Positions 52,731-54,211 of a stretch of 64,000 bases of DNA are shown here, in pieces; within the stretch, counting starts at the first letter, position 1, and the number at the start of each line of letters is the position of its first letter. This DNA is from Stenotrophomonas rhizophila (GTDB taxonomy: Bacteria; Pseudomonadota; Gammaproteobacteria; Xanthomonadales; Xanthomonadaceae). The stretch covers positions 923,605-987,604 of the forward strand of contig NZ_CP007597.1 of assembly GCF_000661955.1 (NCBI RefSeq). The letters run 5' to 3'. The notes beneath the pieces are model-generated. The model searched no databases and was not told the origin of the DNA. It saw only the letters and a program-made list of their open reading frames with translations. The position numbers and the translations under genes were made by a program.

Positions 52731-52904
52731 CCTCGACACTTGGCTGGTGGCCTAGGAGAGAGCCAAGGGCGCCCAACGACGGGCTCTGCACTTCTTTGCA
52801 TGCCGATAGCGTGTCCAAGGGCAGGTGCGGGTGGAGGGGCGGGACCCTCCACCGCATGGATGCGGTGGCGGAGCCTTATCTGACCGGAATCTGGCAGTTT
52901 AGGT

Positions 52905-53060
52905 GTCGAGAGCCGGCGTGGGCCGCCGTGTGAGCCTGGATCTCGACGATCGCCGTGTAGCTTGGCGCCCACGCCGGAATCTCCCTTGATCCGCCCGAAC
53001 AGTTGCTGGAGCTGTCACTCGAAGCGATAAGACTGGGCAAGCGGGGGAGCTCTCGACCCT
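52905..53060 (+). ncRNA. Bridge RNA of the IS110 element (both guide loops readable)
   Basis: Two stem-loops lie in the left end. Target loop: stem CCGGCGTGGGC (52913-52923) with GCCCACGCCGG (52967-52977). On its 5' side GAGCCT (52932-52937) equals the left target; on its 3' side CCGTGTAG (52953-52960) is the complement of CTACANGG at the right target with one mismatch. GATC/GATC closes the tip. Donor loop: ACAGTTGCT (52999-53007) is identical to the element's right end (54090-54098), and GATAAG (53026-53031) is complementary to CTTATC at the left end (52875-52880). Exact RNA ends are not determined. Confidence 0.82.
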
Positions 53061-53083
53061 TCCAGACTATACGGAGTCGGGCG

Positions 53084-53998
53084 ATGAACGGGATCGGGAT
53101 TGATGTAAGCAAGCGCCGGCTGGATGTTGGAACCTCCGACGGCCAAACCCTGCAGGTCAGCAATGACCCCTCCGGTTTCGCTGAATTGGACCTCTGGCTG
53201 AGGCAGCGCCCGAGTAACCAGATCGTGCTGGAGGCCACCGGTGGCTACGAACAGCCTGTGCTGGATTTTCTGCACAAGGCCGGTCATCCGGTGGTTCGGG
53301 CCAATGCCTTGCGGGCGCGGAAGCTTGCTCAGGGGCTGGGCCAGAGGGCCAAGACCGACCGCTTGGATGCCTATGCATTGGCACAGATGGCCACGCTGGT
53401 GAAGCTGCCGGCCTATCAGCCGTTGGAGGCTTGGCAGCAGAAACTGCGGGAGTTTGTGCGGGCACGTCGACAGATGATCCAGGCCTTGGCCGTCGCGCGA
53501 CAGCAGCAGGAAATGGTGGGTGATCGTGAACTGCGCCGGCTTTTGCAGGCCAACATCACCCACCTGAAGACACTGGTCAAACGCCTGGGAAAGCAGATTG
53601 CCGAGCAGCTCGCTCAACAGCCCCAGCTCACGGTTCTGAAGTCGATGAAGGGCGTGGGGCCGGTGGTACAGGCGGTGCTGGCCAGCTACCTGCCTGAGCT
53701 GGGCCATATCAGTGGAAAGGCCATCGCCAGCCTGGTGGGCGTGGCGCCGATGTCCCACGACAGCGGGACGATGCGTGGAAAACGAAGCATCCACGGCGGT
53801 CGAGCCGAGATCCGTCAGGTGCTTTACATGGCCGGCATGTCAGCCCTGCAGCACGAACCGCGCATACGGGACTTTTACCGGTCGCTACGGGCCCGCGGCA
53901 AGGAGGCCAAAGTAGCCATCGTGGCGGTAATGCGAAAGATGCTGGTGATCCTCAACGCCCGCGTGCGCGACGCTCAAAGCGGACCGATCCCCGCCTGA
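53084..53998 (+). CDS. IS110-family DEDD transposase/recombinase
   Basis: 304 residues. Start ATG 53084 (MNGIGIDVSKRRLDV) with ACGGAG seven bases upstream; a longer in-frame start at 53003 would lie in the bridge RNA. RuvC-like DEDD residues D7, E50 (VLEATGGYE), D92 and D95 (KTDRLDAYALA). The C-terminal Transposase_20 domain has SMKGVGPVVQAVLASYLPE and LASLVGVAPMSHDSG-like sequence (here IASLVGVAPMSHDSG), with the putative nucleophilic serine S253 in LYMAGMSALQ. Intact and likely active. Acts with the adjacent bridge RNA. Confidence 0.95.
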   Translation: MNGIGIDVSKRRLDVGTSDGQTLQVSNDPSGFAELDLWLRQRPSNQIVLEATGGYEQPVLDFLHKAGHPVVRANALRARKLAQGLGQRAKTDRLDAYALAQMATLVKLPAYQPLEAWQQKLREFVRARRQMIQALAVARQQQEMVGDRELRRLLQANITHLKTLVKRLGKQIAEQLAQQPQLTVLKSMKGVGPVVQAVLASYLPELGHISGKAIASLVGVAPMSHDSGTMRGKRSIHGGRAEIRQVLYMAGMSALQHEPRIRDFYRSLRARGKEAKVAIVAVMRKMLVILNARVRDAQSGPIPA

Positions 53999-54022
53999 AG
54001 CGCGCCCGGGCACATCTCCAAC

Positions 54023-54086
54023 GGCTGCCGGCCAGCGGCCGGCACTACCGTGCCCGTCTGCTGGAGGGGCCGAAGCCTCCTCCAGC
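54023..54086. repeat. REP and second hairpin within the IS right end
   Basis: A minus-oriented GTAG REP (54023-54048; arms TGCCGGCC/GGCCGGCA, ending CACTAC) lies between the transposase stop and the right terminus. It is followed by a hairpin CTGGAGGGGC/GCCTCCTCCAG with a CGAA loop (54061-54086), one bulged T. Confidence 0.75.
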
Positions 54087-54211
54087 AACACAGTTGCTAC
54101 AAGGACGTACTTGCGGCGTGTCCCGCCCCTCCACCCGCACCTGACCACACACGTACAGGCACGCACTCGCCGCTCTGGTTTTGGTGGCTATTGCGCAAAC
54201 GGGAGAAGAAC

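Follow-up and report, generated by a model that had tools for sequence, protein, structure and literature searches.

An IS110-group insertion sequence in Stenotrophomonas rhizophila with a predicted left-end bridge RNA and an Rfam small RNA family on the opposite strand

Introduction

The insertion sequence examined here lies in a 64,000-nucleotide stretch of Stenotrophomonas rhizophila DNA (contig NZ_CP007597.1, positions 923,605 to 987,604 of the forward strand; hereafter the window), and its nearest described counterpart is IS621 (PMC11208160, PMC11208158). Like the window element, IS621 has a DEDD recombinase, a left-end bridge RNA and a CT core, an RNA with two loops that carry left and right target guides (LTG, RTG) and left and right donor guides (LDG, RDG) in the same order and polarity, a promoter across its joined ends, and a palindromic-repeat target. 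The two differ in the length of the RNA (177 nt in IS621 versus about 153 nt predicted here), in its architecture (a 5′ stem-loop in IS621, a stem closing the 5′ and 3′ ends in the window RNA), in guides and target, and in that the window element has an Rfam small RNA (sRNA) family on its opposite strand.

Two further systems bear on this comparison. ISPpu9, with its small RNAs Asr9 and Ssr9 (PMC8450116), resides like the window element in repetitive extragenic palindromic (REP) sequences and in seven host copies; its sense RNA, Ssr9, lies downstream of tnp and is partly complementary to Asr9, whereas an antisense RNA in the window element would match the bridge RNA base for base as its complement. 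ISEc21 and the IS1111-type seekRNA elements share with the window element an RNA-guided choice of target, some at attC or REP sites, although the examples that target attC and REP sites belong to the IS1111 type and carry their RNA downstream of tnp (PMC11187229). The window bridge RNA belongs to an already known kind, and the more tentative antisense link is the part that most merits attention.

An intact IS110-group element

The ends of the element (Table 1) are fixed by comparison of copies and by an empty site. Seven full copies occur in the genome itself, at 98.9–100% identity and aligned over the whole 1222 bp; GAGCCT closes the left flank of all seven and ACAGTTGCT closes every element, while the right flanks fall into three sequences that diverge from the first bases after CT onwards. 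The flanks otherwise vary to differing degrees, being copies of a repeat. An empty site in another genome of the genus (L207 in G031), which lacks an sX15 match (see below), joins the two window flanks at a single CT (...ggcggagcctacaaggacg...), and thereby settles both ends and the CT core and shows insertion at a dinucleotide core to be scarless. Non-coding DNA amounts to 207 bp upstream of tnp and 100 bp at the right end.

The protein matches PF01548 (DEDD_Tnp_IS110) and PF02371 (Transposase_20) as well as NF033542, ‘IS110 family RNA-guided transposase’ (209.7 bits against a cut-off of 140), and has two relatives of solved structure in the PDB, IS621 (1e-28, the best) and ISCro4 (3.3e-28). 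Its DEDD N-terminal domain and its C-terminal Transposase_20 domain with a catalytic serine make it, as judged from these matches, a protein of IS110 type. The original prediction of an intact IS110-type element with these termini is borne out by the copies and the empty site, and four of the five catalytic residues that it named (D7, E50, D92, D95) stand; the fifth, S253, does not, as the residue aligned with the IS621 catalytic serine, S241 (PMC11208158), is a different one, S227.

Table 1. Features of the insertion sequence and its surroundings (positions within the window)
Feature	Position	Strand	Basis or remark
Left target GAGCCT, including core CT (52875-52876)	52871..52876	+	own copies, empty site
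IS110-group insertion sequence, 1222 bp	52877..54098	+	own-genome copies; empty site in relative
Right donor TATC	52877..52880	+	right-donor covariation
-10-like hexamer CAGTTT	52895..52900	+	17 nt from TTGCTT with ends joined
Rfam RF02234 (sX15), full-model match	52900..53057	-	183.6 bits (cut-off 55); antisense to bridge RNA
Predicted bridge RNA	52905..53057	+	limits estimated from where the promoter lies and from closing stem 52905-52912/53050-53057
Target-binding loop	52913..52977	+	stem 52913-52923/52967-52977; apical stem 52939-52942/52948-52951
LTG GAGCCT	52932..52937	+	
RTG CCGTGTAG	52953..52960	+	reads CTACACGG
Donor-binding loop	52993..53038	+	stem 52993-52996/53035-53038; apical stem 53009-53011/53018-53020
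LDG ACAGTTGCT	52999..53007	+	
RDG GATAAG	53026..53031	+	
-10-like box TAGTCT, putatively for antisense RNA	53064..53069	-	last base 7 nt from sX15 5′ end (53057)
DEDD transposase/recombinase, 304 aa; D7, E50, D92, D95, S227	53084..53998	+	profile matches, structure-relative alignment
Genome-wide repeat inside right end	54023..54050		dozens of short matches to stretch
Left donor ACAGTTG	54090..54096	+	TTG would supply -35 part of junction promoter in circle
Core CT (54097-54098) and right target ACAAGGAC	54097..54106	+	own copies, empty site

A predicted bridge RNA in the left end

The left end holds four guide segments in two internal loops, which follow the order and polarity of IS621, where the 5′ guide pairs with the left bottom strand and the 3′ guide with the right top strand (PMC11208160). 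That all four segments can be read there, against both termini and the core CT at 52875-52876 and 54097-54098, and that the RTG fits seven of eight bases of the right target, had been claimed beforehand from the window alone; each of these readings holds, the site of the window copy carrying one mismatch. The further claim that such a fit is unlikely to be due to chance agrees with the outcome of shuffling the left end 20,000 times with dinucleotides preserved: the target-loop pattern (an exact LTG and an RTG with no more than one mismatch) came up 20 times, the donor-loop pattern (LDG and RDG exact) never, and both together never.

The fold itself is only partly recovered computationally. RNAalifold, run on 77 of the 87 aligned RNAs (defined below), reproduced the two-loop structure incompletely on both strands, so the stems in Table 1 were named by hand; its energy was lower on the minus strand (-42.8 versus -33.2 on the plus strand). 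Folding the left end as a single sequence does not discriminate between the strands either, since each strand exceeds its shuffles in stability (z -3.1 for plus, -2.8 for minus). Of the two handshake bases, the one in the target loop is C in 80 of the 87 RNAs and would pair with the donor G.

Joining the right and left ends places TTGCTT 17 nt from the -10-like hexamer, an arrangement in which A2 and T6 of the hexamer are both kept in 70 of 85 RNAs (the counts at 16 and 18 nt are five and two). As far as the nucleotides alone can tell, this conserved, promoter-like pair spans the junction, as IS110 elements are known to have a promoter across their joined ends (PMC11208160), and it is consistent with a circular intermediate. 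By analogy with IS621, the recombinase would bind the bridge RNA and excise the element as a circle with the joined ends ACAGTTG-CT-TATC; these would complete a promoter for bridge RNA and transposase, and the circle would then be inserted into GAGC-CT-ACACGG sites. Sense transcription should need the circle, because on insertion the target replaces the -35 half.

Guides and insertion sites vary together

Whether the guides of relatives change with their sites was examined in a set of elements collected through their sX15-type RNAs, which occur in 25 of 91 congeneric genomes (21 above the family cut-off) and 88 of 395 genomes of the taxonomic family (70 above it). The set holds 157 loci, 100 of them added from among the matches listed and two places being duplicated (L056/L106, L080/L107); a separate batch of 40 loci was left out of the counts. 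It yielded 87 distinct aligned RNAs of at least 150 nt each, and 135 rows with a called left end, for 93 of which a right end was also called (42 of the 135 were without). Removal of elements lacking a called right end, sites with N, duplicates and, by hand, three loci with mis-called ends (L104, L168, L183) left 62 non-redundant element/site units from 36 genomes.

Across these 62 units the guides match the right target at 4.81 of six positions, against 2.66 for shuffled guides, and the left target at 4.61 of six, against 2.35; in neither case was any of 10,000 shuffles as good, and guides displaced by 1–6 nt matched at 0.9–2.1 of six positions. Class 1 (26 units) alone did better than all 10,000 shuffles, with the base following the core in agreement in 23 units, and covariation also stands by itself in the 22 units that belong to neither class 1 nor the attC-like class. 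The RDG likewise covaries with the right donor (positions 3–5, n = 86; equalled by none of 10,000 shuffles): CTTGTG ends go with guides reading CTTGT in seven of eight RNAs, and CTTCTC ends with CTTCTC in two of two. These right-donor ends were set by a loose motif (at most two mismatches), so that a few may be mis-called, and the counts include non-matching pairs, the largest group being seven of CTTATC with CTTACG, a G-U pair. The check proposed in the original prediction, on the ends of relatives and on the covariation of their guides with insertion sites, is therefore passed over the 62 units as a whole, although not within the attC-like class.

Taken at the level of sequence, the ends, the CT core, the DEDD recombinase, the guide matches and the covariation of targets and right donor are established, and an IS110-group insertion sequence with a bridge RNA encoded in its left end is very probably the right explanation for them. 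Several observations weigh against this explanation. The attC-like class taken alone (14 units) is no better than shuffled guides (5,096 of 10,000 shuffles as good for the right target, 639 of 10,000 for the left), because its units have nearly one target and so almost no variation. All six right-target positions are matched in just 18 of the 62 units, and the fourth right-target base (RT+4) agrees in 13 of the 26 units of class 1; RT+4 is a loose position, and the host repeat itself varies there in the element's own genome. The shuffles moreover count related elements as independent. The left donor is nearly invariant across relatives and its motif was used to locate the right ends, so it offers no test of covariation, and the second, donor-loop base of the handshake is complementary in 39 of 78 RNAs.

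Target sites and target classes

In the element's own genome, four of the seven copies have the exact right target CTACACGG (eight of eight bases), two, including the window copy, have CTACAAGG (seven of eight), and one has CTCCATGG (six of eight). A scan for the repeat pattern found 52 unoccupied target sites, comprising seven RAGCCTACA (six GAGCC, one AAGCC), 18 GAGCTTACA and 27 RAGCCTCCA; a reversed control pattern found none in the same genome. The corresponding numbers of insertions are six, zero and one. Insertions thus favour GAGCCTACA sites, at six of seven versus seven of 52 empty sites of the RAGCCTACA type (Fisher p = 0.0002 for this class against the rest, the classes having been chosen after the list was seen).

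Beyond this genome, a single scaffold serves several target classes (left and right parts separated here by a slash): GAGCCT/ACANGG repeats, GGATCT and GGCTCT sites, TCCGCTCT/ACA, CTAACGCCT/GAATTAAG, and CCCCT/CTCCCG. At least two genomes (G060, G437) hold two target classes apiece. With one scaffold, near-invariant donor ends and at least five target classes, the attC-like among them, these elements form a natural test set for the rules of bridge RNAs, and one that includes recent guide changes paired with site changes. The CTAACGCCT/GAATTAAG sites are the attC-like ones.

A clade of IS110-group elements (L070, L125-L127, L159-L161 and others) occupies attC-like sites of the form CTAACGCCT/GAATTAAGCC, and spans the window's own genus and other genera of the family. 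Such a habit has been described for IS1111-type elements (PMC11187229).

sX15 on the opposite strand and alternative readings

The original prediction had nothing on the minus strand, and the sX15 match is an addition to it. RF02234 is the only Rfam family to match the region and gives the same minus-strand match in all seven own-genome copies; it covers its 158 bases at full length on the strand opposite to the bridge RNA. The match is antisense, since the transposase match lies downstream on the bridge-RNA strand in all 116 loci that have one (41 of the 157 have none). Rfam labels the family as sRNA, with no IS110 link in its output. sX15 itself, catalogued as an sRNA of the Xanthomonadaceae, reportedly goes back to Schmidtke et al. 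2012. The sRNAs of Xanthomonas campestris pathovar vesicatoria (Xcv) were identified by differential RNA sequencing (PMC3771888), and the part of the Xanthomonas sRNA literature drawn on here lists the name sX15, with no role for it found there.

This second RNA would probably have a promoter of its own inside the element, directed along the minus strand. Of the 85 RNAs whose sequence extends far enough, 76 have a minus-strand TANN[CG]T box 3–17 nt past the sX15 5′ end, 65 of them at offset 7, as do 15 of 18 cluster representatives; among random coding 15-mers the motif occurs in 23 of 3,650. Set against such an RNA, no convincing -35 was found, the best having 1–3 of six matches in all 15 clusters tested, and the box adjoins the ribosome-binding site, a stretch that could be constrained for other reasons. 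Weighing these, we lean slightly towards sX15 being a genuine antisense RNA. The absent -35 would also suit a strand error in Rfam, in which case the RNA originally detected was the bridge RNA; this is a serious possibility that we nonetheless somewhat doubt, as it leaves the -10-like signal beyond the RNA end (A[GC]NNTA in plus-strand letters), so far above its coding background, to be accounted for.

If sX15 is an antisense RNA, we tentatively hypothesize that it acts as a natural anti-guide RNA. Since insertion leaves the halves of the sense promoter at opposite ends of the element, integrated copies would make sX15 alone, while circles would make bridge RNA and transposase. Resident copies would in this way supply a conserved antisense RNA that pairs in trans with the guide loops, and the level of transposition would be adjusted to copy number. 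Asr9 of ISPpu9 offers a precedent for an antisense RNA adjoining the ribosome-binding site, which there activates (PMC8450116). A true sX15 antisense would be a natural regulator of bridge RNAs and would assign a function to an Rfam family that has none in the sX15 literature drawn on here.

The Rfam strand could also be read more radically, such that the structured RNA is minus-strand sX15, no plus-strand bridge RNA exists and the matches to DNA have been read from the wrong strand. Wobble pairs give the plus strand no advantage (45 G-U versus 41 A-C cluster-by-pair events, or 31 versus 29 in intact elements, which is neutral), and in 33 of the 87 RNAs the second pair of the closing stem (52906/53056) reads C-A on the plus strand, where the minus strand would have G-U. 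We nevertheless consider this very improbable: a minus-strand reading would have the guides pair with the bottom strand on the right and the top strand on the left, which reverses the polarity of IS621 (PMC11208160), and the conserved promoter-like pair that spans the junction is oriented along the plus strand. That the transposase instead recognizes the repeat as DNA or as a hairpin, with guide matches a by-product of shared ancestry, is scarcely credible, for although many target sites are repeats and close relatives have sites in common, closely related RNAs change guide and site together (CCATGTAG with CTACATGG in L056, CCATGGAG with CTCCATGG in L059, CCCTGTAG with CTACAGGG in L080), site classes of a very different kind, for instance CTCTCCCG and CTGAATTA, fit their own guides too, and class 1 beats its shuffles unaided.

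Rearranged copies and partial elements

The genome-wide repeat inside the right end is REP/SMAG-like. Some relatives of the window element have a right end about 88 bp nearer, and may lack this repeat.

Rearrangements are seen at several loci. Two of the own-genome copies (L003 and L004) have the whole displayed 80-bp left flank in common while their right sides diverge past about 28 bp, which suggests recombination or duplication between copies. Elsewhere in the same genome (L008 1521-1590, genome positions 3105672-3105740) a 40-bp fragment of the right end stands alone and forms a near-perfect palindrome with the right-target sequence that borders it on both sides (CCGTGTAGCAACTG...CAGTTGCTACACGG). 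In genome G395 (L088) one left end sits 14 bp inside a second (TATCTGTTCGGATT followed by CTTATCTG), the result of a nested or tandem event. Lastly, a solo left end with bridge RNA in genome G405 (L152) stops at GGAGCTCT and abuts a class-1 right target, as if a deletion had extended from an internal GAGCTCT to the flank.
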